NCBI GenBank assembly: GCA_002369515.1
Contig: DFFM01000041.1
Span: 1-64,000, forward strand
Length of the DNA stretch: 64,000 bases
Direction: 5' to 3'
Source: Prevotella sp. UBA3776
GTDB lineage: Bacteria; Bacteroidota; Bacteroidia; Bacteroidales; Bacteroidaceae
The notes beneath the pieces were generated by a model. That model did no database searches and was not told the DNA's origin. It saw only the letters and a program-made list of their open reading frames with translations. The position numbers were made by a program, and so were the translations under genes. The stretch's first letter is position 1, and each line of letters starts with the position of its first letter. Below are positions 107 through 61,250 of the stretch, piece after piece.

Positions 107-196
107 TTTTTTTATCGTCGGGAGTTGTGAAAATACTACCGTGAGTTACGAAAATATTGTCGTGCTTTACGGAAAAATTCTCTAGAAAATTTGAAA
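107..196. repeat. TCTAGA-core intergenic repeat, copy A
   Basis: Two contiguous 21-bp units (113-133 and 134-154) and one 23-bp unit (155-177), of the type TATyGTCGkGAGTTryGAAAA, run into the core TTCTCTAGAAAA at 178-189 and then TTTGAAA. The same core and flanks recur at 16204-16303, 26681-26770, 60681-60860 and 61081-61250. No gene is seen between 1 and 277. Confidence 0.65.
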
Positions 197-277
197 TCGT
201 CGCTGCGAATGGCTTTTCGGGCCTTTTCCAACGTGAACGAAAAACCATGCGACAGGATGGCAATTCGCCGTCATGAA

Positions 278-308
278 AAAGAGGCCGACTGTCAAAGTCG
301 GCCTCTTT
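278..308 (-). terminator. Rho-independent terminator of radC
   Basis: The 13-bp arms AAAGAGGCCGACT (278-290) and AGTCGGCCTCTTT (296-308) form a perfect hairpin with a 5-nt loop. On the minus strand it is followed by a T run. It overlaps the last codons and the stop of radC, so the gene end and terminator share sequence. Confidence 0.8.
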
Positions 309-1032
309 CGTAGTAGGAGTAATAGTTGCCATCGGTGATGATGACGTGGTCCATGAAGAAGATGCGCATCAGCTCGCAGGCGTTCTTCACTCGCTGGGTC
401 AGCCTGTCGTCGTCCTTGCTGGGATTGATGCTGTTGCTGGGATGGTTGTGACAGAGTGCCAGCACAGTGGCTTTGGCCAACAGCGCCTCCTTGATGATGA
501 TGCGCACATCGACCGCCGTCTCGGTGATGCCCCCGTGCGAAACGCGCAGGGCTTTTATCAGTTTGTTGTTCTGGTTCATCAGCAGCACCCACGCCTCCTC
601 TACGTCAAGGTCCTGCATCTTGGGGTGCATCAGGTTGTATATGGCGGTCGCCGACCCTATGTCCTGGCGCTCGGCGGCTTTTTCCATCTGTCGCCGTTTG
701 CCCAGCTCGCAGGCTGCGAGCACGGTGATGGCCTTGGCCGGCCCCATGCCGGTGTAGGCGGTGAGGTCTTGGATGGACATTTTGCCCAGCGTGTTCAGGT
801 TGTTGCCGCAGTCGTTCAGCACGTGCTGCATCAGTGACACGGCGCTCTCCTTGGTAGAGCCCGACCCGATGAGAATGGCCAGCAGTTCGGCGTTGGTCAG
901 AGCCTCTGCGCCCAACCTCATGAGCTTCTCGCGCGGGCGGTCTTCCTCTGCCCATTGGTTGATGTTCAGTTTCAGTTCAGAGCTACGAGTTATGAGTTCA
1001 GAGTTATGATTACCTTTATTATCAGCTTTCAT
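292..1032 (-). CDS. radC: RadC-family JAB/MPN domain protein
   Basis: This 246-residue protein has the RadC layout: an N-terminal UPF0758 region (AEEDRPREKLMRLGAEAL near 28-45), a helix-hairpin-helix (YTGMGPAKAI near 92-101) and a C-terminal JAB metalloprotease-like domain with HNHPSNSINPSKDD near 196-209, the predicted zinc site. The family was historically linked to DNA repair, but its real function is unsettled. The start is unusual. The only in-frame ATG ahead of the conserved region (1030-1032) overlaps the stop of the four-helix-bundle gene as ATGA, and residues 6-20 are encoded by the left inverted-repeat arm flanking that gene. The N-terminal extension therefore looks like a by-product of a cassette insertion, with translation probably coupled to the upstream gene. 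Confidence 0.93.
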   Translation of the reverse strand: MKADNKGNHNSELITRSSELKLNINQWAEEDRPREKLMRLGAEALTNAELLAILIGSGSTKESAVSLMQHVLNDCGNNLNTLGKMSIQDLTAYTGMGPAKAITVLAACELGKRRQMEKAAERQDIGSATAIYNLMHPKMQDLDVEEAWVLLMNQNNKLIKALRVSHGGITETAVDVRIIIKEALLAKATVLALCHNHPSNSINPSKDDDRLTQRVKNACELMRIFFMDHVIITDGNYYSYYERGRL

Positions 1033-1442
1033 TTGTCGAAATTATATTTGGTTTTCATGGTTTTAACTGAGGCTACAAGCATTTTTATGATTTCGTCGTT
1101 ATCGCTTGCCATGGAAGAAAAACCTCTTTCTTCAATATAGCCACCTCCATATAGCTTTTCAAGCCAATAGTACGTTTCGTCAGCCTCTTTCAGGGCGATT
1201 TTCAGTTTGTGTACAAAATCTTTCGGGCCTTCGGCATTGCGACTTTCCGCCAGATAGGCACCTATACTTGTACCACTTCGCAGAATCTGCGCAGAAATGA
1301 TTGTCTCATGCTTTTCCTCTTTCAGATACCGAAAAAGTTTCACTATCCGGTCTGTATATCTGTCCACTTTCGTACTTAGTACGCTTTCTTTTCGTTGCAG
1401 CATATCGTAAATAAGGTAATCATAACTCGAAACTCTTAACTC
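987..1442. mobile_element. Inverted-repeat-flanked cassette carrying the four-helix-bundle gene
   Basis: The left arm 987-1016 and right arm 1413-1442 are inverted copies of about 30 bp. The inner 16 bp (GAGTTATGATTACCTT and its complement) are perfect, and the outer part is made of the heptamer-like GAGTTAA/GAGTTCA units seen in other gaps. Between the arms lies exactly one gene, whose ATG is 9 nt from the right arm and whose stop is 12 nt from the left arm. No transposase or obvious target duplication is seen, so mobility is inferred from architecture only. Confidence 0.45.
1029..1403 (-). CDS. Four-helix-bundle protein (23S rRNA IVS-type family)
   Basis: The 124-residue product starts at MLQRKESVLSTKVDRYTDRI and carries the family signature AQILRSGTSIGAYLAESRNA followed by FVHKLKIALKEADETYYWLE. 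These are the hallmarks of the four-helix-bundle family first found as ORFs in 23S rRNA intervening sequences. The biochemical role is unknown. A longer reading frame extends to 1472, but it would run through the right inverted-repeat arm and the end of the glycosyltransferase gene, so the start at 1403, just inside the arm, is preferred. The stop overlaps the radC start (ATGA). Confidence 0.85.
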   Translation of the reverse strand: MLQRKESVLSTKVDRYTDRIVKLFRYLKEEKHETIISAQILRSGTSIGAYLAESRNAEGPKDFVHKLKIALKEADETYYWLEKLYGGGYIEERGFSSMASDNDEIIKMLVASVKTMKTKYNFDK

Positions 1443-1449
1443 GAAACTC

Positions 1450-2493
1450 TTAACTATAAAATGTTTTTTCAAAGGCGGTGAACTCGTCTTGCTTCAGTAC
1501 GCAGCGTTTCCACCATGACTCGATGAATCCGAAACCGTAGCCCATGAGTTGGACGAAAGCGGCAGGGACGGAGAGCAGCCCCACCTTGAGGCTCTTGTTC
1601 TTGGCGGAGGAGTCGATGAAGATTACCAGGCTGTAGAACAGTATGGGAATCCAAGGCAGCAGGGCCACCCAGTACCACGAGCGCCAGTTGGGCTCGTCGT
1701 AGTGCATCAGGGCGCGCCCAACGGCAGAAGTCAGGATGAGCGCCACCACACCCACGGTGAACACGGTGGGGAGCAGATGGACCAGCTTGAGTGTGCCGGG
1801 ATGGCGTTTCTCCAAGTTGATGCGGGCAATGCCGCTGTTATAGACCTGGCGGAAGAACTTGCGGAAGTCGGTGCGGCGCTTGTGCCACACCCACGCGTCG
1901 GCGAAAAGGCGCGGCTGGTAGCCGGCTTCTACGATGCGGTAGCTGAAATCGATGTCTTCGCCGAAGCGCATCTTTGAGAATCCGCCCAGCTGCCTATAGA
2001 CGTCGCGGCGGATGCCCATGTTGAACGAGCGGGGGTAGAACTTGTCCAGTTTCTTCTTCCCTCCGCGTATGCCGCCCGTGGTGAAGAACGAGGTCATCGA
2101 GTAGCTGATGGCCTTCTGCACATCGGTGAACGATGGGTGCGAGGCGTCGGGGCCGCCAAAGGCTTCGGCCGGTTGGCGGCGCATCTCGTCGTCAACGGCC
2201 TGCAGATAACCCTGGGGCAGCACCACGTCGGAGTCGAGCACGATGAGCATGTCGCCCTGCGCCCGTTCGGCTCCGTAGTTGCGGCTTTGGCCGGGGCCGG
2301 AGTTGGGCTTCACGAAGTATTTCACGTCCATCAGTGGCATGTATTTCTCCACCACCTGGCGACAGTCGCGCTGCGAACCGTCTTCCACGATGAGCACTTC
2401 GAAGTCGGTCACAGTCTGTTGGGTGAGGCTCTGCAACAGCTCGTCCACCTCGTCAGGACGATTGAACACAGGAACAATTATGGAATATTTCAT
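1450..2493 (-). CDS. Membrane-anchored family 2 glycosyltransferase
   Basis: This 347-residue GT2 enzyme (GT-A fold) opens with MKYSIIVPVFNRPDEV, the nucleotide-sugar binding strand. It carries a DxD-type site in VLDSDVVLP near residue 90 and an acceptor/catalytic region FGEDIDFSYRI near 180. Two C-terminal hydrophobic segments (TVFTVGVVALILTSAV and LLPWIPILFYSLVIFI) suggest it sits at the inner membrane and transfers sugars to a lipid or surface glycan; the substrate cannot be told. The start at 2493 is chosen over 2511 because the fold begins at MKYSIIV. A TAnnTTTG box lies only 5 nt upstream, implying a leaderless or nearly leaderless mRNA. Confidence 0.9.
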   Translation of the reverse strand: MKYSIIVPVFNRPDEVDELLQSLTQQTVTDFEVLIVEDGSQRDCRQVVEKYMPLMDVKYFVKPNSGPGQSRNYGAERAQGDMLIVLDSDVVLPQGYLQAVDDEMRRQPAEAFGGPDASHPSFTDVQKAISYSMTSFFTTGGIRGGKKKLDKFYPRSFNMGIRRDVYRQLGGFSKMRFGEDIDFSYRIVEAGYQPRLFADAWVWHKRRTDFRKFFRQVYNSGIARINLEKRHPGTLKLVHLLPTVFTVGVVALILTSAVGRALMHYDEPNWRSWYWVALLPWIPILFYSLVIFIDSSAKNKSLKVGLLSVPAAFVQLMGYGFGFIESWWKRCVLKQDEFTAFEKTFYS

Positions 2494-2498
2494 GAGCG

Positions 2499-2506
2499 CA
2501 AAGGTA
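2499..2506 (-). promoter_or_regulatory. -7 box (TACCTTTG) of the glycosyltransferase gene
   Basis: TACCTTTG on the minus strand matches the Bacteroidetes primary-sigma -7 consensus TAnnTTTG. It is 5 nt from the ATG at 2493, so the transcript would have almost no leader. Confidence 0.6.
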
Positions 2507-2548
2507 AACATTTATTGGCATAAGAGCAATAATTTCATATTTTATTTG

Positions 2549-2556
2549 TATTTTTG
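2549..2556 (+). promoter_or_regulatory. -7 box (TATTTTTG) of the SufT-like gene
   Basis: TATTTTTG matches TAnnTTTG and lies 21 nt before the ATG at 2578. It is divergent from the glycosyltransferase promoter across an 86-bp gap. Confidence 0.65.
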
Positions 2557-2577
2557 TGGCCAAAAACCGACGACATT

Positions 2578-2898
2578 ATGACGCAAGAAGAAAAGACAAA
2601 GATAGAAGAACGCATCGTTGACGTGCTCAAGACCGTCTATGACCCCGAAATTCCCGTTGACATCTGGAATTTGGGCATGATTTACAAAATCGACGTAAAA
2701 GAAGACGCAAGCGTCGAGGTGGATATGACATTCACCGCACCGTCGTGCCCCGCCGCCGACTTCATCCTGGAGGACGTGCGCACAAAGATAGAGAGCGTGG
2801 AGGGCGTGGGCAGCGTCAACGTGAACCTCGTGTTCGAACCCGCATGGGATCAGAGCATGATGAGCGAGGAAGCCCGCGTAGAACTCGGCTTCGACTAG
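2578..2898 (+). CDS. SufT-like iron-sulfur assembly protein (DUF59/MIP18)
   Basis: The 106-residue protein consists of one DUF59 domain: YDPEIPVDIWNLGMIYKI near 22-39 and FTAPSCPAADFI near 50-61, with the conserved Cys of the family. DUF59 proteins assist iron-sulfur cluster delivery (bacterial SufT, eukaryotic MIP18). The start at 2578 (MTQEEKTK) is preferred over 2554, which overlaps the -7 box. The gene is followed after 40 bp by lpxH in the same direction and is not next to other suf genes here. Confidence 0.88.
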   Translation: MTQEEKTKIEERIVDVLKTVYDPEIPVDIWNLGMIYKIDVKEDASVEVDMTFTAPSCPAADFILEDVRTKIESVEGVGSVNVNLVFEPAWDQSMMSEEARVELGFD

Positions 2899-2938
2899 AA
2901 AACACCGTCCCCCCCCTTAATCCACCACACAGACAAAA

Positions 2939-3709
2939 ATGATCAACAAAAACGTATATTTCCTTTCCGATGCCCACCTTGGCTCGTGGGCCATCGACCA
3001 CGGACGAATGCAAGAGCGTCGGCTCGTGCGATTTCTCGACAGCATCAAGAACAAAGCCGCTGCCGCCTATCTGCTGGGCGACATGTTCGACTTCTGGTAC
3101 GAGTGGAAATACACCGTGCCCAAAGGCTACACGCGGTTCTTGGGAAAACTGTCCGAACTGACTGACATGGGCGTGGAAGTCCACTATTTCACCGGCAACC
3201 ACGACATTTGGATGTACGGCTACCTGGAGCAAGAATGCGGCGTCATACTGCACAAAAAGCCGGCCACGGTGGAAATCTACGACAAGGTGTTCTACCTGGC
3301 CCACGGCGACGGGCTGGGCGACGAGAACAAAAGCTTCAAGTTCATCCGAAGCATTTTCCACAACACCACCTGCCAGCGGCTGTTCTCAACGCTCCATCCC
3401 CGCTGGGCGATGTGGTTCGGACTGACATGGGCCAAGCACTCGCGACTCAAACGCGCCGACGGCAAGGAACCACCCTACATGGGCGAGGACAAGGAATTTC
3501 TCGTGCAGTACACCAAACAGTACATGCGCACCCACTCCGACATAGACTACTTCATTTATGGCCACCGCCACATCGAACTCGACCTCATGCTCAGCCACAA
3601 AACACGCATGATTATCCTCGGCGACTGGATTTGGCAATTCTCATACGTGGTCTTCGACGGCGAACACTTCTTCCTTTCCGAATATGCCGAAGGGGAAAGT
3701 CAGATGTAA
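2939..3709 (+). CDS. lpxH: UDP-2,3-diacylglucosamine diphosphatase
   Basis: This 256-residue metallophosphoesterase hydrolyses UDP-2,3-diacylglucosamine to lipid X and UMP in lipid A synthesis, at the cytoplasmic face of the inner membrane. All metal-binding motifs of the family are visible in order: LSDAHLGSW (residues 8-16), LGDMFDFWYEW (about 43-53), TGNHDIW (about 85-91), AHGDGLG (about 121-127) and YGHRHIEL (about 205-212). Length is normal for LpxH of Bacteroidetes. It probably shares the promoter of the SufT-like gene. A long hairpin just downstream (3728-3785) can end the transcript. Confidence 0.92.
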   Translation: MINKNVYFLSDAHLGSWAIDHGRMQERRLVRFLDSIKNKAAAAYLLGDMFDFWYEWKYTVPKGYTRFLGKLSELTDMGVEVHYFTGNHDIWMYGYLEQECGVILHKKPATVEIYDKVFYLAHGDGLGDENKSFKFIRSIFHNTTCQRLFSTLHPRWAMWFGLTWAKHSRLKRADGKEPPYMGEDKEFLVQYTKQYMRTHSDIDYFIYGHRHIELDLMLSHKTRMIILGDWIWQFSYVVFDGEHFFLSEYAEGESQM

Positions 3710-3712
3710 GAA

Positions 3713-3872
3713 ACTTAACCAAATCAACACCATAAAGCGCCCCAAACTTAACCAATTGTGGTTAAGTTTGGGGCGCTTTATGGTGCCACTTAACCAAAAT
3801 AACGGCGAAAAATGTTAATTTTTGGCCGTTTTTGAATTTTTCTGGGCAAAACTTAACCAGTTTTGGATAAGT
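3713..3872. promoter_or_regulatory. Operator-like array of ACTTAACCA sites
   Basis: The 9-mer ACTTAACCA occurs directly at 3713-3721, 3746-3754, 3788-3796 and 3851-3859, and as its complement TGGTTAAGT at 3759-3767 (TGGATAAGT at 3864-3872). Two of these form identical dyads, ACTTAACCA-4 nt-TGGwTAAGT, at 3746-3767 and 3851-3872. The second dyad ends 5 nt before the -7 box of the AlbA-type gene, where a bound protein would block transcription. The likely ligand is the AlbA/wHTH protein encoded next, acting on its own gene; this is inference. Confidence 0.55.
3728..3785. repeat. Perfect 27-bp inverted repeat (hairpin, 4-nt loop)
   Basis: Arms 3728-3754 and 3759-3785 are perfect reverse complements around the loop ATTG. 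The arm begins CACCATAAAGCGCCCC and ends with an operator-like ACTTAACCA. It can act as the lpxH terminator in RNA, and as a cruciform or double operator in DNA. Confidence 0.9.
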
Positions 3873-3877
3873 TTTGT

Positions 3878-3885
3878 TATCTTTG
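3878..3885 (+). promoter_or_regulatory. -7 box (TATCTTTG) of the AlbA-type gene
   Basis: TATCTTTG fits the TAnnTTTG consensus. It is 22 nt before the ATG at 3908 and directly downstream of the second ACTTAACCA dyad. Confidence 0.65.
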
Positions 3886-3907
3886 CAACTGAATGAAGAA
3901 CAAATAA

Positions 3908-5440: not shown

Positions 5441-5463
5441 AACACTTAAAACCACACATCATC

Positions 5464-5997: not shown

Positions 5998-6085
5998 GGG
6001 CCACTCCGGCTTTCGAAGCCCCCTGGATTCTTTTCTTTCTCCGGCTTCAGCCTTTGCTTCATCACCTTGCATAATTGGTTCTTTT

Positions 6086-14981: not shown

Positions 14982-16091
14982 TTAGTTTTTCTTCGCCAGT
15001 TTGATGACCTCGTCGGCAATGATGTCGGCGGAGTGGGGCAGGGCCAACTTCAGGATGTTTTGGCTGAGTGTGGCCAGCCGTTCGTCGTCGTTCACCGTCT
15101 TGACGGCCAGGGCCAACAGCTCGGCCGGAGCGTCGGCATCCTTTACGTAGAGGGCGGCGTCCTTGTTGACCAGAGCCATGGCGTTCTTGGTCTGGTGGTC
15201 TTCGGCCACGTTGGGGCTGGGCACCAGGATGACAGGCTTGCCCAGCAGGCAGAACTCGCTGATGGAGCCTGCTCCGGCACGGCTGATGACCAGGTCAGCG
15301 GCCCTGTAGGCTGCTCCCATGTCGCTGATGAAGTCGGTAACGTGGAGCATGGGCAGCTCGCGGCCCCGCATCTGCTCGGCTATGGCGGCACTGTAGTATT
15401 TGCCCGTCTGCCAGACGAACTGCACACCCGACTGTTCCACCAGGTCGAGGTGCTGCAGGACGCTCTCGTTGATGGTGCGCGCTCCCAGGCTGCCGCCCAC
15501 CAGCAGGATGGTCTTCTTCTGCACGTCCAGTCCGAAACTTTGCAGGGCCTCTTCGCGGCTGATGGTGGTTTGGAGCAGGGCCTGGCGCACGGGGTTGCCC
15601 GTCATGATGATTTTCTCGGCGGGGAAGAATTTCTCCATGCCCTCGTAGGCCACGCACACCTTGGCGGCCTTGCCGGCCAGCATCTTGTTGGTTTTGCCTG
15701 CAAACGAGTTCTGCTCTTGTATGAGGCAGGGAATGCCCATGCCCATGGCCGCCTTCAGGGTGGGAAAGCTGGCATAGCCGCCTACGCCCACGGCCGCCAT
15801 GGGGCGGAACTGGCGCAGAATCTGCTTCACCATGTGGTTGCTCTTCCACATCTTGTAGGGCAGCGTGATGTTCTTCAGCAGGTTCGAACGGTTGAAGCCG
15901 CTGATGGGCAGACCTTTTATTTCGTATCCGGCCTGCGGCACACGCGTCATCTCCATGCGGCCCTCGGCTCCCACAAACAGGATTTTAGCGACGGGACACT
16001 TGGCCTTGATGGCGTTGGCGATGGAAATGGCGGGGAAGATGTGGCCCCCCGTGCCGCCACCGCTGACTACTATTCTGAGTTCTTCGTTCAT
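14982..16091 (-). CDS. murG: Lipid II synthase (GlcNAc transferase) MurG
   Basis: This 369-residue GT28 enzyme adds GlcNAc to lipid I on the cytoplasmic face of the membrane. The signature loop SGGGTGGHIFPAISIANAI is at residues 9-27, and a second glycine loop VGGSLGARTINESV lies near 190. The UDP-GlcNAc site is visible as ISRAGAGSISEFCLLGKPVI near 265-285. The 315-bp gap to ftsW upstream is unusually large for this cluster and holds a copy of the TCTAGA-core repeat. Confidence 0.97.
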   Translation of the reverse strand: MNEELRIVVSGGGTGGHIFPAISIANAIKAKCPVAKILFVGAEGRMEMTRVPQAGYEIKGLPISGFNRSNLLKNITLPYKMWKSNHMVKQILRQFRPMAAVGVGGYASFPTLKAAMGMGIPCLIQEQNSFAGKTNKMLAGKAAKVCVAYEGMEKFFPAEKIIMTGNPVRQALLQTTISREEALQSFGLDVQKKTILLVGGSLGARTINESVLQHLDLVEQSGVQFVWQTGKYYSAAIAEQMRGRELPMLHVTDFISDMGAAYRAADLVISRAGAGSISEFCLLGKPVILVPSPNVAEDHQTKNAMALVNKDAALYVKDADAPAELLALAVKTVNDDERLATLSQNILKLALPHSADIIADEVIKLAKKN

Positions 16092-16203
16092 ATATTTACA
16101 TATTTCTGCAAAAGTACGAAAATAATTTTTCTTTTTGCCAAATTTCTGCCAATTTCTTTTTGGGCTTTTCCGCTCGTGGCCAAAATTTCTCCGCGTGTCG
16201 TCA

Positions 16204-16303
16204 TGCTCTCGTCGGGAGATATTTTTTTGTTGTCGTGAGTTGCAAAATTATTGTCGGGAGATACGCTGAAATTCTCTAGAGAACTTGCGCCTGTTTCCCG
16301 ACG
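16204..16303. repeat. TCTAGA-core intergenic repeat, copy B (ftsW-murG gap)
   Basis: The 12-bp perfect palindrome TTCTCTAGAGAA (16272-16283) is preceded by units with GTCGGGAGATA (near 16211 and 16253) and TTGTCGTGAGTTGCAAAA, and followed by CTGTTTCCCGACG (16291-16303). It occupies most of the 315-bp gap between ftsW and murG (16092-16406); nothing else is recognised there. Confidence 0.7.
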
Positions 16304-16406
16304 TCATTTCGTCGCCTCCCGCCGTGGGCGTTTTTTCGCGCGACAATGCTGTCGGCGCGGCTTCTCAGGCGGGTGCATTGGCTTCTCAGACGAGTGCCGC
16401 GGCTTC

Positions 16407-17693
16407 TCAGACGGATGCCACGGCCAGTTTCACCTTGCCTGAACCGTCTGTCACGGCGGCCTCGTCCTTCTTCTTGGCCGAGTAGCTCACGCTGAGGATG
16501 ACGCCCATGTAGATGCAGTTGATGATGGTCGAGGTGCCGCCCTTGCTGATGAGCGGCAGCGGCTGTCCCGTCACGGGCACCAAGCCTACGGCCACCAGCA
16601 TGTTGAACATGGCTTGCGTGACGAGCAGCAGGGCCAGCCCCATGATGAGCAGCGCGGGGAAGATGTTTTCGCAGCGGTTGGCGATGGTGGCCGTGCGGAA
16701 CAGCAGGATGATGTAGAGCATGCACACCACGATGGCTCCCACGATGCCCATCTCCTCGATGATGATGGCGTAGATGAAGTCGGAGAACGCCTGCGACAGG
16801 AAGTCGCGCTCCACCGAGTTGCCGGGCCCTTTGCCCACGATGTTGCTCGAAGCGATGGCTATGTTGGCGTGGGCCACCTGGGCGTCCTTGTCGAGGTCGA
16901 ATTCGTTGGGCGCCACTTCCTCACTGTTGAGGAATTTGTCGATGCGCGATTTCCACGTGTCGGCACGATGGAACAGTTTGTCCAATTTGCTGGGCTCCTC
17001 CAGCTCGGTTTCGGCGGCAGCCTCGGTCATGGCCAGCTTAGGGTCCTTCTCCTCTACGTCGTTGCCCACAATCATGATGGTGGCCAGCCCGAAAGCGGCT
17101 ATCAGCATGACACAGCCCAGCAGCTTGCCTATCTGAACCAGGGGTACGCGCCCGATGAACATCATCATCACGATGACGGCGCTCACCAGCACTGCCGTAG
17201 AGAGGTTTTCGAGCATGATGAGCGGAACGATGGCGCCGCAGACACACATGATGTATTTGAACGCCCGCTTGTCGGCGCCACGCTCGGTCTGCATGGCGCT
17301 CAGTATTTGGGCCACGGCCAGAATCAGCGCGCCCTTGGCTATCTCTGACGGCTGAAACTGAATGCCCACAAGACTGATCCAGCGCTGCGCGCCGTTGGTG
17401 CTGTGGCCCGCTATGAGCACCCAGACGAGCGTGAACAGGGCGAATGCCAACATGAAGGGGGTGACAATCTTGAAGTACTTGCACTTGACGTTCATCACCA
17501 CCACCATGCAGAATACGCCCACCAGCAGCAGCCCCGCATGCTTGATCATCGGGCTCCAGTAGTTGCCCGTCTTGTACGTCAGTACGCTCGAGGCGCTATA
17601 CACCTCGACGATGCTGATGATGCAGAGCAGGAAGAATATCATCCAGATGATACCGTCGCCCTTGAATTTCTTGCTGAATATTTTGTCTAACAT
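16407..17693 (-). CDS. ftsW: Septal peptidoglycan polymerase FtsW
   Basis: This 428-residue SEDS-family integral membrane protein polymerises lipid II at the septum with FtsI. About ten hydrophobic segments are visible, with the SEDS segments NGAQRWISLVGIQFQPSEIAK near 99-119 and GLVPVTGQPLPLISKGGTS near 370-388. A charged periplasmic loop (VEEKDPKLAMTEAAAETELEEPSKLDK near 215-241) is longer than in enterobacteria. The C-terminus is short and charged. murD lies 46 bp upstream, separated by a heptamer array. Confidence 0.96.
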   Translation of the reverse strand: MLDKIFSKKFKGDGIIWMIFFLLCIISIVEVYSASSVLTYKTGNYWSPMIKHAGLLLVGVFCMVVVMNVKCKYFKIVTPFMLAFALFTLVWVLIAGHSTNGAQRWISLVGIQFQPSEIAKGALILAVAQILSAMQTERGADKRAFKYIMCVCGAIVPLIMLENLSTAVLVSAVIVMMMFIGRVPLVQIGKLLGCVMLIAAFGLATIMIVGNDVEEKDPKLAMTEAAAETELEEPSKLDKLFHRADTWKSRIDKFLNSEEVAPNEFDLDKDAQVAHANIAIASSNIVGKGPGNSVERDFLSQAFSDFIYAIIIEEMGIVGAIVVCMLYIILLFRTATIANRCENIFPALLIMGLALLLVTQAMFNMLVAVGLVPVTGQPLPLISKGGTSTIINCIYMGVILSVSYSAKKKDEAAVTDGSGKVKLAVASV

Positions 17694-19187: not shown

Positions 19188-20465
19188 CTATCTCATCTTC
19201 AGCGTGATGATGGTCAGCGCAGCCAGAATGATGGTGGTGATCCAGAAGCGGAACGTAATCTTCGACTCGTGGAACTGTCGCTGCGGCCAGTGCTTGAAGA
19301 TGTAGCGGCTTGACTCGTCGAGTTGCGAGTCCAGCTTGCGGAAGTTGTCGTGTATGGGCGTGGCGCGGAACACCCTCACGCGCTCGCCCTTGCGCTTGTA
19401 CCACTTGAACACCTGGGTCTGGATGATGACGCTCAGGCTCTCAACGAAGAAGATTCCGCAGAGGATGGGCAGCAGCAGCTCCTTGTGGATGATGACGGCG
19501 CAAACGCCAATGATGCCGCCGATGGTGAGCGACCCCGTGTCGCCCATGAACACCTGCGCGGGATAGGCGTTGTACCAGAGAAAACCAATCATGGCACCCA
19601 CGAAGGCGCACATGAAGATGACCAGCTCCTGCGAGCCCTGAATGTACATGATGTCGAAATAGCTGGCAAAACCGATGTGCGACGACACGTAGGCCAAGAT
19701 GCCCAGCGCCACACCGATGATGGCCGCGTTGCCCGCGCACATGCCGTCCATGCCGTCGTTAAGGTTGGCGCCGTTGGAAACGGCCGTCACCACCAGAATG
19801 GTCATCAGCACGAACAGCACCCAGCCTGCGGCTGACTTGTGTTTGCCGAATATCGACATCACCTGCGAATAGTCCAAGTTGTGGTTCTTGAAGAACGGAA
19901 CGGTGGTTTTCAGCGATTTCACCGCCTCTTTCTGGTGTTTCACCACCACCTCCTGCTGAGCGGTGTTGTGGGGCACACTCACATTCTCGCGCACCACGGC
20001 GTCGGGGCTCAGATAGAGCACAATGCCCACGATGAATCCGATGCTCACCTGGCCCACAATCTTGTACTTGCCCTTCAGACCGTCTTTGTTGCGGCGGAAA
20101 ATCTTGATGTAGTCGTCCAGAAAGCCCAGGAACCCCAGCCACACGGTGGTGATGATCATCAGGATGAGGTAGATGTTGCGCATGCGGCCCAACAGCAGTA
20201 CGGGCAACAGGATGGACACGATGATGATGATGCCCCCCATGGTGGGCACCCCCTTCTTCTGAGTGCCGAAGGGGTCGATGCTGGCGTCGCGGGCGGTTTC
20301 GGAAATGTTCTTCCGCTTCATGTACTTGATGAAGTGTTCGCCGAACCATGCCGAGATGATCAGCGAGAAAATGAGCGTGAGCAGCGCGCGGAACGATATG
20401 TACGACCACACGTGCGCACCGGGAATGTCGTATTGCTCTAGAAAACGGAACAGATAGTATAACAT
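19188..20465 (-). CDS. mraY: Phospho-N-acetylmuramoyl-pentapeptide transferase
   Basis: This 425-residue polytopic membrane enzyme transfers phospho-MurNAc-pentapeptide to undecaprenyl phosphate, giving lipid I. Conserved segments: KKGVPTMGGIIII near 70-82, FLDDYIKIFRRNKDGL near 116-131 (the Asp-Asp motif), NGANLNDGMDGMCAG near 232-246, and QTQVFKWYKRKGERVFRATPIHD-like sequence near 370-392 with the family HxxP-type region. It is longer than the E. coli enzyme (360 aa) because of an insert near 150-215, a common feature of Bacteroidetes MraY. Confidence 0.97.
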   Translation of the reverse strand: MLYYLFRFLEQYDIPGAHVWSYISFRALLTLIFSLIISAWFGEHFIKYMKRKNISETARDASIDPFGTQKKGVPTMGGIIIIVSILLPVLLLGRMRNIYLILMIITTVWLGFLGFLDDYIKIFRRNKDGLKGKYKIVGQVSIGFIVGIVLYLSPDAVVRENVSVPHNTAQQEVVVKHQKEAVKSLKTTVPFFKNHNLDYSQVMSIFGKHKSAAGWVLFVLMTILVVTAVSNGANLNDGMDGMCAGNAAIIGVALGILAYVSSHIGFASYFDIMYIQGSQELVIFMCAFVGAMIGFLWYNAYPAQVFMGDTGSLTIGGIIGVCAVIIHKELLLPILCGIFFVESLSVIIQTQVFKWYKRKGERVRVFRATPIHDNFRKLDSQLDESSRYIFKHWPQRQFHESKITFRFWITTIILAALTIITLKMR

Positions 20466-26027: not shown

Positions 26028-26480
26028 TCAGAATTCTGCACCACCCATAATGCTTTCCATGGCCTTGCTGAATTCGTCGGCTTCCATGAACGGCTGGTTG
26101 CCCTCGTCGTTGCTCCAAATCTCTATGGTGTCGTCAACACCCACAAACTTCAGGCTTTGCTCGATGTGTGCCATCTTCAGGTAACGTTTCGGTATGAGGA
26201 AGCGTCCGTTGCCGTCGAGCTCTATCTGCTCGGCGTCGGCCACGAACTGGCGGAATATCTGCTGGTGGGCCTTGTTCCAGCGGTTCAGCGACTGCCGCAA
26301 CACGTCCATCTGCTCGTTCCATACGTCCTCAGGATAGAGCACAAGACAGTCCTGGTGGATGTCTTTCCTGAGCACCAGCTGTTCGCACTTGGCGCCTTGC
26401 AGCACCTTGCGGAATGTGGCCGGCAGGAAAGCCCTTCCCTTGGCGTCAATCTTGGCTTCTATGTTTCCTAAAAATCGCAT
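26028..26480 (-). CDS. mraZ: MraZ, dcw-cluster transcriptional regulator
   Basis: The 150-residue protein has two SpoVT/AbrB-like half-domains: residues 1-60 with NIEAKIDAKGRAFLPATFR and 75-135 with IELDGNGRFLIPKRYLK. MraZ is known to bind repeats ahead of its own promoter in other bacteria and to regulate the dcw cluster. It is first in the cluster, behind a -7 box at 26510-26517; I could not identify clear MraZ boxes in the short upstream region. Confidence 0.95.
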   Translation of the reverse strand: MRFLGNIEAKIDAKGRAFLPATFRKVLQGAKCEQLVLRKDIHQDCLVLYPEDVWNEQMDVLRQSLNRWNKAHQQIFRQFVADAEQIELDGNGRFLIPKRYLKMAHIEQSLKFVGVDDTIEIWSNDEGNQPFMEADEFSKAMESIMGGAEF

Positions 26481-26680: not shown

Positions 26681-26770
26681 GTTTTCTTGGAGTTACGAAA
26701 ATAACGCTTAACTTTGCGCTCAGATTCTCTAGAGAATTCAATCCTGTTGCCGTGCGTTATTTTCGTCGTC
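26681..26770. repeat. TCTAGA-core intergenic repeat, copy C
   Basis: The palindrome TTCTCTAGAGAA (26725-26736) is preceded by a 21-bp unit ending GGAGTTACGAAAA (26681-26701) and followed by TTCAATCCTGTTGCCGTGCG. A plus-strand TAACTTTG box (26709-26716) lies inside it, so the repeat overlaps the likely promoter of the HU-like gene. Together with the mraZ promoter it accounts for most of the gap 26481-26853. Confidence 0.65.
26709..26716 (+). promoter_or_regulatory. -7 box (TAACTTTG) of the HU-like gene
   Basis: TAACTTTG matches TAnnTTTG, 137 nt before the ATG at 26854, and lies within a TCTAGA-core repeat. Confidence 0.45.
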
Positions 26771-26853: not shown

Positions 26854-27429
26854 ATGAAATTCAAAATTACCCGTGAAAACCGTCCAACACTGAAAAACTA
26901 CGGCCGCTACAAGGCCGTGGTCGTTCACGAAAACACCATCGAGACAAGCCAGATTGTCCGTGAGGTGAGCCGCAGCATAGGCGCCTCGCGCGGTTCGGTC
27001 ATCGCCGTGCTCATTGCCCTGTCCGAGAGTGTGGGCGACCATCTGCGCCGAGGCGACCGTGTGCGTCTCGACGACTGGGGGCTGCTCAAACTCGAGATAG
27101 AATGCGAAAAGGTGGATAGTCCCGATGAATTCGACGAAAACCGCCACATCCGCGCCACGCGCCTCCATTTTCTGCCCGAGAGCCGCCACGGCCGTCAGAT
27201 GCTTTACGACGGGCTGCAGTTTTCGCGCGACGAACCACCGTCGCCTTCCTCCTCTCCGAAGGATGCCGCAGGGGACGTACAGCTGGGTGTGGCAACGTCC
27301 GCACCCGTGGGGGCAAACCTGCGAAAAAAGTCCATTCCATCGCAAAATACCGTCTTTCAATCGTCTTGTGTAAAACCACCCAATAACCCAACATTTTGCC
27401 AACATGAACATTACAATCGAAATACCTGA
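26854..27429 (+). CDS. HU-like DNA-binding domain protein
   Basis: The 191-residue protein carries an HU/IHF-like domain of the Bacteroidetes HU-HIG type in residues 1-120: MKFKITRENRPTLKNYGRYK, then IETSQIVREVSRSIGASRG, VIAVLIALSESVGDHLRRGD and VRLDDWGLLKLEIE. The C-terminal 70 residues are low-complexity and unconserved (DEPPSPSSSPKDAAG). It probably binds DNA as a nucleoid-type protein. The start at 26854 begins the conserved domain; a longer frame from 26752 would be encoded by the upstream repeat. Its last 26 bp overlap the start of the Imm32-like gene. Confidence 0.75.
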   Translation: MKFKITRENRPTLKNYGRYKAVVVHENTIETSQIVREVSRSIGASRGSVIAVLIALSESVGDHLRRGDRVRLDDWGLLKLEIECEKVDSPDEFDENRHIRATRLHFLPESRHGRQMLYDGLQFSRDEPPSPSSSPKDAAGDVQLGVATSAPVGANLRKKSIPSQNTVFQSSCVKPPNNPTFCQHEHYNRNT

Positions 27430-41399: not shown

Positions 41400-41509
41400 T
41401 AGGAGTTAAGAGTTAGGAGTTAGGAGTTAAGAGTTAGGAGTTAAGAATTTGGCACAAAAAAAGGAGTTAAGAAAACTCCTAACTCCTAATTCCTAACTCC
41501 TAACTCCTA
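41400..41509. repeat. Inverted heptamer arrays (long hairpin) between convergent genes
   Basis: GGAGTTA/AGAGTTA units (about 41402-41447) face their complements AACTCCT/AATTCCT (about 41474-41509) around a short spacer; about 33 of 36 arm positions pair. It could form a long hairpin ending both convergent transcripts. It uses the same unit as the arms of the four-helix-bundle cassette, but without a gene inside. Confidence 0.8.
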
Positions 41510-51741: not shown

Positions 51742-51870
51742 AACCACCATCTTTCATTTGTTTTTTTTAATAGTTGCAAATAAAAATCGTGTGCGTACAT
51801 TATTTTTTAATTACGAGTCAGATGGAGAAACATCGGAAGCGGTAAATGCAACTCTGCGCATGGCGAAAAT

Positions 51871-51930
51871 GCTTCTCGACGATACGCTTGTTTTTTCTGG
51901 AAAAACCAGAGCTGTCTCCCGACGTTGTTC
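51871..51930. repeat. TCTAGA-core repeat family, diverged copy D
   Basis: GCTTCTCGACGATACGC is followed by TTTTTTCTGGAAAAACCAGA (51891-51910) and GCTGTCTCCCGACGTTG (51911-51927). The same order TTTTTTCTGGAAAA ... CTGTCTTCCGACG occurs at 60681-60714. Here the TCTAGA palindrome is replaced by a TCTGG/CCAGA hairpin. The rest of the gap 51543-52065 holds the two divergent promoters and the TTCGGACAA element. Confidence 0.5.
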
Positions 51931-55174: not shown

Positions 55175-55312
55175 ATGAGCAAGAAAAAAGTAAATGCAAA
55201 GCGCGAAGCTTTCAAAAAGAAACAGGAACAGCAAGGACAGCGGGTGGTGAATTGGATCTTTGGAGTCCTCATTGCCCTCGGTGTGATCTACGCCATCTAT
55301 CTTTGCCTGTAA
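55175..55312 (+). CDS. Small single-pass membrane protein
   Basis: A 45-codon gene: MSKKKVNAKREAFKKKQEQQ is a strongly basic, helix-forming start, and NWIFGVLIALGVIYAIYLCL is one C-terminal membrane segment. It resembles small, uncharacterised membrane proteins often found in Bacteroidetes, with basic cytoplasmic tails. It lies 87 bp after prfB and 34 bp before the CYTH gene, in the same direction. Start and stop are clear; function is unknown. Confidence 0.7.
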   Translation: MSKKKVNAKREAFKKKQEQQGQRVVNWIFGVLIALGVIYAIYLCL

Positions 55313-55346
55313 ACGGCTAACCAATCAACCGTAAAAACACATCACT

Positions 55347-56274: not shown

Positions 56275-56309
56275 TTCCGTTTCTTCTGTCTTTTCTGTCA
56301 TTTCGGGTG

Positions 56310-56317
56310 CAAAGATA
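56310..56317 (-). promoter_or_regulatory. -7 box (TATCTTTG) of the VanZ-family gene
   Basis: TATCTTTG on the minus strand, 35 nt before the ATG at 56274 and divergent from the transporter promoter. Confidence 0.6.
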
Positions 56318-56402
56318 GTGCAAAACGAGGGATTGACTTCCACGAATGTCGATATTTTTCATTTTTCCTGATGAATTCGCATTTTTTCTGCCATTATTTT
56401 TA

Positions 56403-56410
56403 TATTTTTG
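56403..56410 (+). promoter_or_regulatory. -7 box (TATTTTTG) of the transporter pair
   Basis: TATTTTTG, 27 nt before the ATG at 56438. Confidence 0.65.
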
Positions 56411-56437
56411 CACCGAAAATCTTCTTATTCATATTTT

Positions 56438-57796: not shown

Positions 57797-57807
57797 GGTC
57801 CATCATC

Positions 57808-59160
57808 ATGGCTCGTAGCAAGTTTGGCAGTCTTTTAGGCATTGTTTTGGCCACCGCAGGCTCTGCGGTGGGGTTGGGCAACGTGTGGCGTTTCCCCTAC
57901 ATGACAGGACACAACGGTGGAGCTGCCTTCATTGTCTTCTATTTCGTTTGCGTGTTGTTGTTGGGGCTGCCGGGCATGATTAGCGAATTCATCGTTGGCC
58001 GTCACGGTGGCGCCAATGCGGCCCGTGCCTACGACCAACTGTCTCGCGGCAAGCCGTGGCGGCTGGTGGGCTATTTGGGCATACTCACTTCCACCATCAT
58101 TCTGGGCTTCTATGCCGTGGTGGCCGGATGGTGCCTGCAATATTTGTTCGCTTCGCTCATGGGGAGCCTCAATGGCGATTCCAGTTACGTAGCCCGCTAC
58201 TTTGCCGACTTCTCCGCCCATCCGCTGAAACCGTGCCTCTGGGCCGTGGCCTTCGTCCTGATCACCCATCTGGTCATTGTGCGTGGTGTGCAAAATGGCA
58301 TCGAGCGCGCCTCAAAGCTGCTCATGCCCACGCTGTTGGTGCTCTTGGTAATTATCGTCGTCGCCTCGTGCATGCTGCCTGGTGCCATGCGTGGAGTGGA
58401 GTTTCTGCTGAAGCCCGACTTCTCGAAACTCAGCGGCAGTGTTCTGCTCGAAGCCCTGGGCCAGGCTTTCTTCTCGCTCAGTCTGGGTACGGCCTGCCTC
58501 TGCACCTACGCCTCCTATTTCGACCACAACGTCAACTTGGGTCGCTCGGCCCTGCAGATTGCCCTCGTCGATACGCTCATTGCCATACTGGCAGGCTTGA
58601 TGATCTTCCCCGCCGCTTTCTCTGTGGGCATCACCCCCGACGCCGGCCCGTCACTCATCTTCATCACCCTGCCCAACGTCTTCCGCGAGGCGTTTGCAAC
58701 CATGCCTGCTGTCGGCTACGTCATTTCCGTCATGTTCTATGCACTGCTGGTGTTTGCCGCGCTGACCAGCACCATCTCGATGCACGAAATCGGCACGGCC
58801 TTTTTCCACGAAGAGCTCCGTCAGCCGCGTCGTCGCGCCGCATGGGTTCTGACGGTAGCCTGCAGTGTGATAGCCGTCGGCTGCTCGCTGTCGATGGGAG
58901 CCTGTCCCGGGTTGAAGCTCCTTGGAGTCAACCTGCTCGACTTCTGCGACAAGCTGACAGCCCAATATCTCTTGCCACTGGGCTCGTTGCTCACCTGCCT
59001 GTTTGTCGGTTGGTATGTGCCGCGCGTCACCGTTCATGGCGAGTTCACCAACAACGGTGCCCTCAGGGGCCGATTCTTTGGTCTTTATCTCTTTGCCGTG
59101 CGATTCCTCTGCCCCCTCTGCATAGCACTGATTTTCCTCCATCAAATGGGGGTGATTTAA
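57808..59160 (+). CDS. Sodium-dependent transporter (NSS/SNF family), second copy
   Basis: The 450-residue product is a close paralogue of the preceding transporter, aligned over its whole length (ATAGSAVGLGNVWRFPYMTG is identical in both). TM1, the TM6-region ALGQAFFSLSLGTACLCTYA near 215-234 and the C-terminal YVPRVTVHGEFTNNGAL segment are shared. Tandem duplication with divergence suggests different substrate preferences. The start at 57808 (MARSKFGSLLG) is chosen by alignment with the first copy; the frame extends upstream only as shadow sequence. Confidence 0.93.
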   Translation: MARSKFGSLLGIVLATAGSAVGLGNVWRFPYMTGHNGGAAFIVFYFVCVLLLGLPGMISEFIVGRHGGANAARAYDQLSRGKPWRLVGYLGILTSTIILGFYAVVAGWCLQYLFASLMGSLNGDSSYVARYFADFSAHPLKPCLWAVAFVLITHLVIVRGVQNGIERASKLLMPTLLVLLVIIVVASCMLPGAMRGVEFLLKPDFSKLSGSVLLEALGQAFFSLSLGTACLCTYASYFDHNVNLGRSALQIALVDTLIAILAGLMIFPAAFSVGITPDAGPSLIFITLPNVFREAFATMPAVGYVISVMFYALLVFAALTSTISMHEIGTAFFHEELRQPRRRAAWVLTVACSVIAVGCSLSMGACPGLKLLGVNLLDFCDKLTAQYLLPLGSLLTCLFVGWYVPRVTVHGEFTNNGALRGRFFGLYLFAVRFLCPLCIALIFLHQMGVI

Positions 59161-59233
59161 AGGGGTGGGGATAAGAAAAAAAGTATTCTGATTGTCTAAC
59201 CGCCTGATTGTCTTACTGCCTAACCGTCGAGCC

Positions 59234-60151
59234 ATGAACTTCAAGGAACTGTTCTACTTTCCACGATCCGACCGAAAGGTGTTGCTGGCTCTCTTGCTGA
59301 TTGCCACCATTGCGCTGGCCTGTTTCTACTTCATCGGAGGACGCTACAAAGAAACCACCCTCACGGCAGCCGACTCGGCTGCCGTTCGTAACTGGCAGGG
59401 CGCACCCCGACACGCCTACAGGCAGCGCTACCGCCACAACCGACGAAAATGGTACTACAACGAGTCTGCCGAACGGCACACCGAACTATTCCCATTCGAC
59501 CCCAATACCGCCGACAGCAGCCAGCTGCTGCGTCTCGGGTTGCAATCCTGGCAGGTAAGGAATATATATAAGTATCGCAACGCCGGGGGCATCTACCGCA
59601 AACCACAGGACTTTGCCCGCCTCTACGGCCTTACCGTAGGGCAGTATCGTCGGCTCGAACCCTACATTCATATAGGAAAAGACTTTATGGATGCGGCCAC
59701 GCTCTACGACTACGAACCCGCCGGCGAGCGTGATACCGTCAGGTCGCCCATCAAGATTGAACCCACCGAGCGCGTCGTGCTGAACGATGCCGACACCAAC
59801 CGACTCAAGAAAGTTCCGGGCATAGGATCGCACTTCGCCAGGAAAATTGTGCAATACCGCGAGCGGTTGGGAGGTTTCTACAGCGTCAACCAACTGCTCG
59901 AAATCGACGATTTCCCCGAGTCGGCGCTCAGTTTCTTCATCATTCCCGACGACCAGCTGCGCAAAATCAACCTCAACCGGCTCACGCTCGACCAGTTGCG
60001 TCGCCATCCCTACATCAACTTCTTCCAGGCAAAGGCCATCACCGACTACCGGCGGCTCAAAGGACCTCTGCACAGCCTGCACGACCTGCGCCTGCTGAAA
60101 GACTTTCCGCCAGAAGCCATCAGACGGCTCCAACCCTACGTCGAGTTCTAG
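59234..60151 (+). CDS. ComEA-like helix-hairpin-helix membrane protein
   Basis: This 305-residue protein has an N-terminal membrane anchor (KVLLALLLIATIALACFYFI, about 15-34), a basic linker, and three helix-hairpin-helix modules: FDPNTADSSQLLRLGLQSWQ near 88-107, VVLNDADTNRLKKVPGIGSH near 182-201 and INLNRLTLDQLRRHPYINFF near 247-266. ComEA-type proteins bind incoming DNA in natural transformation, but many Bacteroidetes homologues are unstudied. Start 59234 (MNFKELFYFPRSDRK) is preferred over 59192. Upstream (59190-59230) an 8/16-bp repeat (CTGATTGT, CTAACCGC type) fills the gap. Confidence 0.85.
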   Translation: MNFKELFYFPRSDRKVLLALLLIATIALACFYFIGGRYKETTLTAADSAAVRNWQGAPRHAYRQRYRHNRRKWYYNESAERHTELFPFDPNTADSSQLLRLGLQSWQVRNIYKYRNAGGIYRKPQDFARLYGLTVGQYRRLEPYIHIGKDFMDAATLYDYEPAGERDTVRSPIKIEPTERVVLNDADTNRLKKVPGIGSHFARKIVQYRERLGGFYSVNQLLEIDDFPESALSFFIIPDDQLRKINLNRLTLDQLRRHPYINFFQAKAITDYRRLKGPLHSLHDLRLLKDFPPEAIRRLQPYVEF

Positions 60152-60194
60152 TCCGTTGCCCGGCCGGCATGGCATTGTTCCGCCGGGCGGTGGC

Positions 60195-60234
60195 AGAAAA
60201 AAAGAGAAGTGGCTGAAAAACTCAGCCACTTCTC
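60195..60234 (-). terminator. Terminator of tRNA-Pro (minus strand)
   Basis: GAGAAGTGGCTGA (60204-60216) and TCAGCCACTTCTC (60222-60234) are perfect complements, followed on the minus strand by a T run. It may also slow the plus-strand transcript of the ComEA-like gene. Confidence 0.85.
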
Positions 60235-60256
60235 CGTCTTGCTCTTGGTCTTTAGG

Positions 60257-60329
60257 TCGGGATGAGGCGACTCGAACGCCCGACCCCTACGTCCCGAACG
60301 TAGTGCGCTACCAACTGCGCTACATCCCG
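60257..60329 (-). tRNA. tRNA-Pro (anticodon CGG)
   Basis: The minus strand folds as a 73-nt cloverleaf: acceptor CGGGATG/CATCCCG, D arm with AGCGCAGTTGGTAGCGC, anticodon stem CTACG/CGTAG around loop TTCGGGA (CGG), and T arm GTTCGAGTC. CCA is not encoded. Confidence 0.95.
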
Positions 60330-60352
60330 ATTGCTTTTCTTGAAAAGCGGTG

Positions 60353-60360
60353 CAAAGATA
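60353..60360 (-). promoter_or_regulatory. -7 box (TATCTTTG) of tRNA-Pro
   Basis: TATCTTTG on the minus strand, 23 nt before the tRNA 5' end. Confidence 0.65.
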
Positions 60361-60434
60361 GTGCATTTTTCGCAATTACTAGCATGTTTTGGGAGAAAAA
60401 TCGAAAAAAATTTGCTTTGTTCGCAAAAAAGCCG

Positions 60435-60442
60435 TAACTTTG
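60435..60442 (+). promoter_or_regulatory. -7 box (TAACTTTG) of tRNA-Phe
   Basis: TAACTTTG, 70 nt before the tRNA 5' end; divergent from the tRNA-Pro promoter. Confidence 0.65.
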
Positions 60443-60512
60443 CACCCGCTCTGAACGAAATGACTAGGGCGTTGGTGTCCTTTTCGATGGTTCGGGGCGT
60501 ATGATCATAGTT

Positions 60513-60585
60513 GGTGCCTTAGCTCAGTTGGTAGAGCATCGGACTGAAAATCCGTGTGTCCCCGGTTCGATTCCTGGAGGTACCA
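60513..60585 (+). tRNA. tRNA-Phe (anticodon GAA)
   Basis: A 73-nt cloverleaf: acceptor GGTGCCT/AGGTACC (one G-U), D arm AGCTCAGTTGGTAGAGC, anticodon stem CGGA/TCCG with loop CTGAAAA (GAA), T arm GGTTCGATTCC. CCA is not encoded. Confidence 0.96.
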
Positions 60586-60598
60586 CAGAAGATTGCAA

Positions 60599-60639
60599 GA
60601 ATCCGTTTTCCCGTTGGGGGAGACGGATTTCTTTTTTTT
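60599..60639 (+). terminator. Terminator of tRNA-Phe
   Basis: AATCCGT...TTCCC pairs with GGGGA...ACGGATT, and a run of eight T residues (60632-60639) follows. Confidence 0.8.
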
Positions 60640-60680
60640 GTCCCCCGCCGTGCCAAAATTGTCGTCATGAGCCGTCACCA

Positions 60681-60860
60681 TTTTTTCTGGAAAATATGAA
60701 CCTGTCTTCCGACGATAATTTTGTATCTCTCGGCATGCTGAAAATATCTCCCGACGACAGGATGAAATTATCTAGAGAATTTGAACGCATTGTCGGGAGA
60801 TATTTTTTATCGCCGGTAAATATTGTTTTATTTCCCGACGCCACATTCGTAGTCTCAAGG
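60681..60860. repeat. TCTAGA-core repeat family, copy E
   Basis: TTTTTTCTGGAAAA (60681-60694) and CTGTCTTCCGACGATAATTT are followed by ~21-bp units (TATCTCTCGGCATGCTGAAAA, TATCTCCCGACGACAGGATG), the core TTATCTAGAGAA (60768-60779), TTTGAACGCA, then inverted units with TTGTCGGGAGATA (60790-60802). It also encodes short spurious frames of SPDDxxxLS type. Confidence 0.7.
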
Positions 60861-60888
60861 CCTTTTGGTTTCTTCAGCTGAAAAGCAT

Positions 60889-61015
60889 ACGCTACGCGTC
60901 TTTCAAAAACAAATAAAAACAAAAACGGACAAGGAAAAACAGGTTTTTATTTGTAAAGCACCTTGTTTTGTTGGTTTTTCTTTGTTTTTATTGGTTTTTG
61001 AAAGACGCGTAGCGT
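60889..61015. repeat. Long inverted repeat, second copy of the edge repeat
   Basis: Arms 60889-60926 and 60978-61015 pair at about 36 of 38 positions (outer ACGCTACGCGTCTTTCAAAAA). The right half (TTTTGTTGGTTTTTCTTTG then TTTTTATTGG) repeats the sequence at positions 1-52. An inner ACAAGG/CCTTGT pair exists in the loop. Confidence 0.75.
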
Positions 61016-61080
61016 TATCATTCCCAAGGATTCCAGCGTAAAGCACGACAACAGAAAAACAAACTCATGACTACAGAAAA

Positions 61081-61250
61081 TTATCTCCCGACGATAGGAT
61101 GAAATTATCTAGAAAATTTGAGCGTATCTCCCGACGATAATTTTATGTCTCTCGGCACTCGGCAATTATCCCTCGGCAAGTTGGAAGTGTTTCCTAGCGT
61201 ACGGCAATTGTCTCCCGGCATGCTGGATTTGTCCCTCGGCATGTTTAACC
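61081..61250. repeat. TCTAGA-core repeat, copy F, with six 21-bp tandem units
   Basis: TTATCTCCCGACGATAGGAT and the core TTATCTAGAAAA (61105-61116) precede six contiguous 21-bp units at 61125, 61146, 61167, 61188, 61209 and 61230, consensus TrTCTCyCGGCAnnnnGGnAA. Units are adjacent with no spacers, so this is not CRISPR. The gap 60640-61267 is wholly accounted for by this and the two preceding repeats. Confidence 0.8.

Follow-up and report, generated by a model that had tools for sequence, protein, structure and literature searches.

Short intergenic palindromes in many copies are familiar from repetitive extragenic palindromic (REP) elements and bacterial interspersed mosaic elements (BIMEs), which are accompanied by a REP-associated tyrosine transposase (RAYT). 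Repeated sites also form iteron origins, which adjoin primase-helicase genes, for example in satellite phage P4. Among DNA-binding proteins, the HU-HIG family (PF18291) of the HU/IHF superfamily was reportedly described in 2017 as having expanded in the Bacteroidetes, and we found no described DNA target for it in the literature searched. The nearest described repeat to the one reported here is, by description, BrickBuilt, a miniature inverted-repeat transposable element (MITE) of Porphyromonas gingivalis whose leader and tail segments carry terminal inverted repeats and whose 23-nt units are repeated directly in tandem (PMC4596501). Here we describe an intergenic repeat family with a TCTAGA palindrome as its core, found in a 64,000-nucleotide stretch of Prevotella sp. 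UBA3776 (contig DFFM01000041.1; the whole stretch is called the window below), and its link to one HU-HIG DNA-binding protein, which is the main new result.

Compared by description, the element is, like BrickBuilt, a Bacteroidota intergenic repeat whose tandem units are comparable in length (21 bp here, 23 nt in BrickBuilt), but here the units about the palindromic core may face either way, ends of that kind were not observed, and the element is linked to a HU-HIG gene. With REP elements and BIMEs it shares short intergenic palindromes in many copies, whereas its 21-bp dyad lattice and the lack of a core in any Y1 transposase locus set it apart. P4-type iteron origins likewise combine a primase-helicase gene with repeated sites on helical spacing; here, by contrast, sites also lie at the HU-HIG promoter and are most numerous where the primase-helicase domain PF08800 was not found or was weakly matched. 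The linked protein is a member of the HU-HIG family, and the repeat core is a candidate DNA target for it. The element itself was not found in the literature searched, which leaves out most subscription journals, and to that extent the outcome agrees with the initial annotation, which called it undescribed.

Results

The genome of the window (G000; Prevotella-like, 2.40 Mb, 66.7% complete, 56 contigs) was read directly over 845.5 kb, comprising the window and 40 further stretches, in which genes called with a purpose-made small hexamer caller cover 82.6% of the bases. In the window, TTCTCTAGAGAA occurs six times with at most two mismatches, compared with 1.34 expected, and none of 100 shuffles reached six; the sixth match, at 20434, lies inside a called gene and was left out of the copy count. 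Of the seven places at which a TCTAGA core had been reported (Table 1), five carry it. Those at 51891 and 60681 read TCTGGA instead, and were accepted as degenerate copies because their unit offsets (-30/+13 and +13, respectively) also occur at true cores. As a figure for the window, "about seven copies" holds, but for the genome it is far too low: the exact 16-base core AATTYTCTAGARAATT is present 61 times in G000, with none for the reversed-pattern control, and a looser core pattern with three mismatches gave 140/145 matches versus 46/33 for its control. Thirty of the 51 TCTAGA sites in the 845.5 kb fit the loose core pattern; two cores without units (L051:8542, L063:1100) were left out of membership counts.

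Drawn from 65 distinct TCTAGA sites by requiring the centre to match in 14 or more positions, 43 copies align gap-free over 72 bases. Their centre, AAATTYTCTAGARAATTT, is nearly invariant. The candidate recognition sequence is the palindrome AAATTCTCTAGAGAATTT. Each arm consists of a single 21-bp unit (AAAATATCTCCCGACGATACG and its variants), which may be inverted or direct, and dyad units surround an 18-bp palindrome at 21-bp steps. The flanking 21-bp units noted at the outset are thereby substantiated: a 21-mer profile at 16 bits finds them at 105 places in the 845.5 kb, compared with 5 in one Markov-1 simulation, and 96 of the 105 are intergenic despite the gene coverage given above, an enrichment between genes that the initial annotation had put up for testing. 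At 12 bits, 36 of 82 neighbouring unit pairs (within 80 bp) are spaced 21 bp, units face each other across the core 45 bp apart in 13 cases, and the slots are centred about -61, -40 and -19 on one side of the core and +24, +45 and +66 on the other, with units in either orientation. When G581, a relative, was scanned with the G000-built profile, the same offsets recurred round 54 cores (224 units at 13 bits or more, 178 intergenic, versus 20 in a Markov simulation), and neighbouring cores were spaced 43, 85, 106 and 127 bp, close to multiples of 21–22 bp. A lattice of 21-bp dyads round a palindromic core is common to both genomes.

Clustering of the proteins encoded beside elements in relatives gave two recurrent families, one of 130 aa (six loci) and a larger one (five loci). 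Five of six scanned 130-aa proteins are HU-HIG; the three scanned members of the larger family are BT4734-like_N proteins, whose full-length versions add a VapE-like helicase domain. The window protein downstream of copy 3 scores 66.9 bits against PF18291 (gathering cut-off 26.2), its profile matches HU chains with a best E of 7e-4, and the linked HU-HIG protein has 1258 relatives at E 1e-3. Two HU-HIG proteins scanned against a defence-system library gave no match. Among 398 genus genomes, 126 contain a HU-HIG match at E<=1e-12, matches being scored on at most ten candidates per genome, among the matches listed. For 30 genomes we took the best match of each, picking loci by protein and not by core; two (L233, L238) were excluded since the gene-placing motif was absent, leaving 28 readable loci. 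A core lies upstream in 26 of these, at 209–607 bp from a motif located roughly 20 codons inside the HU-HIG gene, and in 24 it forms part of a pair 65–66 bp apart. Within 110 bp upstream, a core of at least 12/16 was present at 18 of the 28 HU-HIG genes, compared with 3 of 240 other genes. Twelve of these 18 promoter cores end 2–3 bp before a TAnnTTTG box, which we take to be the Bacteroidota -7 motif, five end 22–24 bp before it, a distance greater by roughly one lattice step, and one has no box; by itself, the box is found at 25/28 HU-HIG and 102/240 other genes. In the window, TCTAGA lies 126 bp upstream of the HU-HIG gene and is conserved in G581, whose four listed HU-HIG genes each have a core variant of 12–13/16 at 131–334 bp upstream (background: 42 of 784 G581 genes with at least 12/16 within 350 bp). 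Across the 398 genomes, core and HU-HIG protein (E<=1e-30) occur together in 57, the core alone in 12, the protein alone in 27 and neither in 302 (Fisher p 4.3e-36, a value overstated by the relatedness of the genomes), and 20 of the 21 genomes with at least ten cores contain HU-HIG.

The HU-HIG gene has a preferred neighbour, the primase-helicase gene, which adjoins it in 15 of the 20 stretches read (maximum length 20 kb), compared with 5 of 20 for the next commonest neighbour. In 14 of the 15 the two genes are divergent with a core pair between them, and in G122 they are in tandem with the pair before both. Twelve genomes, mostly core-rich ones, were tested for PF08800, and 10 gave a match. 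PF08800 was not found in G000 and G558, which are both incomplete, and was weakly matched in G581; all three keep HU-HIG genes. Scanned against the defence-system library, the primase-helicase gave a PrimPol match and a weak match to a reverse transcriptase (RT)-associated VirE model. The control region of the HU-HIG cassettes (L247-L264) also holds 11-bp repeats (ACTACAT every 11 bp) in inverted arrays that flank the core pair. Near the pair, mean self-match in 14 cassettes was 0.377/0.347 at lag 11 and 0.367/0.348 at lag 22, compared with about 0.30 for the majority of other lags.

Searches of three genome samples confirmed that there are further copies well beyond the window. The 18-base core was present in 69 of 398 genus genomes at 1–115 copies, compared with none for the reversed control among the rows listed; the richest genomes were G000, G558 and G581, the last with 106 cores. 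In the family sample, the 16-base core was found in 7 of 399 genomes, of which four belong to the same genus; the three from other genera include one with a pair (G294) and one with a pair in which one core is altered (G356). Three of 295 genomes in the order sample had the 18-base core, namely G000 and two with a single copy each. Among relatives, a common arrangement is two cores 65 bp apart whose intervening sequence varies; in such genomes the spacing is 65, sometimes 66 and once 130 bp, near multiples of 21–22 bp. The fixed spacing is evident from G122, in which each of 11 listed neighbouring-core pairs is 65 bp apart, and not from the 49 distinct pair middles collected from relatives, which are very different in sequence and were gathered by a pattern allowing just 48–51 bases. 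By eye, unit sequences are alike within a genome and differ between species, and G713 combines G000-type arrays with G122-type pairs. Judged by a window protein that is presumably RsmH-like, the named relatives are Prevotella and other Prevotellaceae at no more than 73% identity, for which reason the genus is called Prevotella-like here. Of 80 named Prevotellaceae loci, one (RUG13469, L076) carries a pair of cores at 65-bp spacing, and none has HU-HIG beside the RsmH-like gene at E 1e-6 in the flanks covered. A different kind of repeat, with TCTAGA inside tandem 9-bp units, is present at three loci from other Prevotellaceae (L103, L106, L147).

A viral-contig collection described as 2.9 million contigs had the core pair in one stretch and a single 18-mer in 24. 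HU-HIG had no match in a phage collection and two weak ones in a plasmid collection (23–27% identity, both labelled Prevotella, one record of 1.77 Mb). On these counts, we rejected the idea that the elements are phage or plasmid cargo.

In the window all copies lie between genes, as originally stated, and genome-wide nearly all do. Of the 30 unit-bearing cores in the read part of G000, 25 stand between two called genes (14 in tandem, 5 in divergent and 6 in convergent gaps), four are at stretch or contig ends and one overlaps a called gene by 33 bp at its 3' end. G581 has 28 cores in tandem, 14 in divergent and 10 in convergent gaps and 2 at stretch ends, with none of the 54 inside a called gene. 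A bias in orientation relative to genes was not observed: gap types follow the intergenic base share, both in G000 (83 kb tandem, 27 kb divergent and 19 kb convergent in gaps of at least 100 bp) and in G581 (105, 42 and 20 kb), which does not support a role as terminators. Among 43 orthologous intergenic gaps of the two genomes, two have a core in both, one in G000 alone and 40 in neither; in this small sample, copies can therefore persist and can come or go. Copy 2, flanked by genes whose order leads us to regard them as murG-like and ftsW-like, is absent at the same place in G581 (gap of 315 versus 101 bp); this is one site pair, and its flanks align too poorly to show ends. At copy 3, next to a presumably mraZ-like gene, G581 shares the window's gene arrangement. 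The left unit and core are conserved there, except for a paired change beside TCTAGA (C..G to T..A), and the right half differs. A number of arrays fall on runs of N or are close to the end of a contig (C13, C32, C24; L062:17920-18084, window start), so that either the array family breaks assemblies or the runs of N in the fetched stretches are masking and not assembly gaps.

Discussion

Taking the observed family, lattice, gene linkage, promoter position and co-occurrence together, we infer that the core is the operator or nucleation site of the HU-HIG protein. We consider it probable, though well short of assured, that a homodimeric HU-HIG protein recognises the TCTAGA palindrome, that the arrays are dimer-filled rows nucleated at the core, and that the protein controls its own gene. 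The palindrome calls for a binder with two-fold symmetry, the 21-bp lattice points to a dimer every two turns, and gene linkage together with promoter position favours the HU-HIG protein as that binder. The dimeric binding site envisaged in the initial annotation thereby gains support and a named, putative occupant. HU is reported to occupy about 19–20 bp per dimer in crystal work, and an HU38-19bp entry among the structure matches of the model fits such spacing without being proof. According to this proposal, an array would be a row of two-fold-symmetric sites, spaced by one HU-dimer step (about 21 bp, two helical turns), which dimers would fill side by side and probably cooperatively, starting at the core. 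In the commonest layout in relatives, a core pair three steps (65 bp) apart would serve the HU-HIG and divergent primase-helicase genes between which it lies; from this pair and the further core adjoining the HU-HIG promoter, autoregulation and control of the neighbouring gene by the protein appear probable. In some lineages, including G000 and G581, arrays would have multiplied to dozens of mostly intergenic places, with HU-HIG retained and the primase-helicase not found or weakly matched; the dispersed copies may be read by the same HU-HIG protein. More tentatively, this could amount to sequence-addressed HU chromatin, a possibility that we regard as open to considerable doubt, in which HU-HIG dimers would fill lattices from the palindrome, the arrays of some Prevotella-like lineages would have spread to about 100 places as nucleoid-structuring or regulatory sites, and unit sequences would turn over between species as the core stays fixed.

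Several points weigh against HU-HIG as the reader of the core. HU proteins typically bind DNA with little sequence specificity. The structure model is poor (mean pLDDT 58), its best matches in the Protein Data Bank (PDB) are HU at E 0.08 or worse, and a search with the single HU-HIG sequence found no PDB relative. The 30 loci were ranked by likeness to a protein itself found beside the core, and relatedness of the genomes inflates the co-occurrence statistic. None of the four G581 HU-HIG genes has a core of 14/16 or better. Twelve core-bearing genomes lack a detected HU-HIG, one of them with 14 cores (G713, 71% complete, at most ten candidates scored), and 27 have HU-HIG without the exact 18-base core, of which at least one (G611) has a 16-base pair. 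HU-HIG gene number, among the matches listed, did not correlate with core number in the 57 genomes with both (Spearman -0.08, p 0.58). Finally, nine high-copy or related genomes of the 12 tested, beyond G000, G558 and G581, do have PF08800 proteins, so that the primase-helicase is possibly a player there. As the sole core reader it is unlikely, because PF08800 was not found or was weak in the three richest genomes; its absence from G000 and G558 is provisional.

The same cassette could instead be a replication unit, the core pair and 11-bp repeats being its iteron-type origin and the dispersed arrays solo origin copies. The position of the pair between a primase- and helicase-like protein and an HU-type protein, the inverted 11-bp repeats with their raised self-match at lags 11 and 22, and the frequency of PF08800 in the tested genomes fit such an origin. 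We nevertheless regard it as rather improbable, since the three most core-rich genomes are those in which PF08800 was missing or weak, an additional core sits at the HU-HIG promoter, and, among the neighbours at 20 loci, no integrase or other mobility gene stands out as conserved. If the dispersed arrays were MITE-like selfish elements that some enzyme moves, and the HU-HIG linkage went back to one ancestral copy, this would account for the patchy copy number, for units that are alike within a genome and different between species, and for the murG-like/ftsW-like copy that G581 lacks. Such an origin seems to us unlikely, if worth serious attention: fixed spacing is kept despite changing sequence between cores (11 pairs in G122), HU-HIG linkage extends over many species, two copies occupy the same place in two species, and no clear element ends were seen. 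No Y1 transposase association was found either, in a search limited to Y1_Tnp among transposases. The association with a REP-type transposase that the initial annotation had put up for testing is not supported: G000, at its given completeness, has two Y1_Tnp matches, neither fetched locus (L151, L152) holds a TCTAGA core, and the nearest core, C47:53693, is about 2.3 kb before a match.

The remaining alternative, transcribed RNA hairpins or terminators, also draws on a suggestion of the initial annotation, that of a structured RNA. The near-palindrome folds on paper, and its arms are correlated, with a covariation score of 0.226 compared with 0.193 (sd 0.010) in shuffles and 0.080–0.145 in slid versions; none of 500 shuffles reached the observed score or percentage paired. 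This covariation is real but modest, and pairs changed on both sides stay at the shuffle level (24 versus 23.2; 222/500). Correlated arms would follow just as well from a DNA dyad or from arm correction, and the score favours neither DNA nor RNA. In some copies the inner stem is interrupted by direct-orientation units, tandem units reach beyond the hairpin, gene orientation follows the intergenic base share in both genomes, and in an Rfam scan of the window only two tRNAs reached the gathering score. Taken together, these results make an RNA element very improbable.

HU-HIG proteins are numerous, and the palindrome would give them a concrete target to test: a nearly invariant 18-bp sequence, often paired at a fixed 65 bp, at the HU-HIG promoter. 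If recognition by HU-HIG is true, it would explain a class of intergenic repeats in Prevotella-like genomes and show how a nucleoid-type protein gains sequence addresses.

Copies in the window and further sequence features

Table 1. Copies of the repeat and the HU-HIG gene in the window
Feature	Position	Strand	Remarks
Copy 1	107..193	none	21-bp unit array left of core TCTAGA 181-186; start of contig C32
Copy 2	16201..16313	none	TCTAGA 16275-16280; between minus-strand genes 14982-16091 and 16407-17693
Copy 3	26690..26766	none	TCTAGA 26728-26733; divergent gap between 26028-26480(-) and HU-HIG gene
HU-HIG DNA-binding protein gene	26854..27429	+	PF18291 E 2.2e-18; 191 aa; candidate core binder
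Copy 4	51866..51929	none	degenerate core TCTGGA 51896-51901; units at lattice offsets -30, +13
Copy 5	60681..60722	none	degenerate core TCTGGA 60686-60691; unit at offset +13
Copy 6	60741..60860	none	TCTAGA 60771-60776; units on both sides
Copy 7	61078..61240	none	TCTAGA 61108-61113; direct-orientation units to right

Outside the window, the Y1 transposase domain of locus L151 (G000:C47:54461-57688) is embedded in frame in a long methylase-like open frame, and GGDVSHVAT-like repeats are encoded on either side. A core copy (L047:13693) lies about 390 bp before this frame, and its left unit is nearly the same as that of the HU-HIG upstream copy. Within the window, a second interspersed repeat of AAAACCAACAAAAAC type with a GACGC..GCGT end occupies 1-60 and 60889-61015; it is 82% inverted at the latter and is also found next to runs of N in several further stretches. 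A convergent-gene gap at 41400-41509 is taken up by 7-bp repeats (TAGGAGT / ACTCCTA) arranged as inverted arrays about a 31-bp centre, and a perfect 27-bp inverted repeat with a 4-base loop lies at 3728-3785, between two called plus-strand genes.

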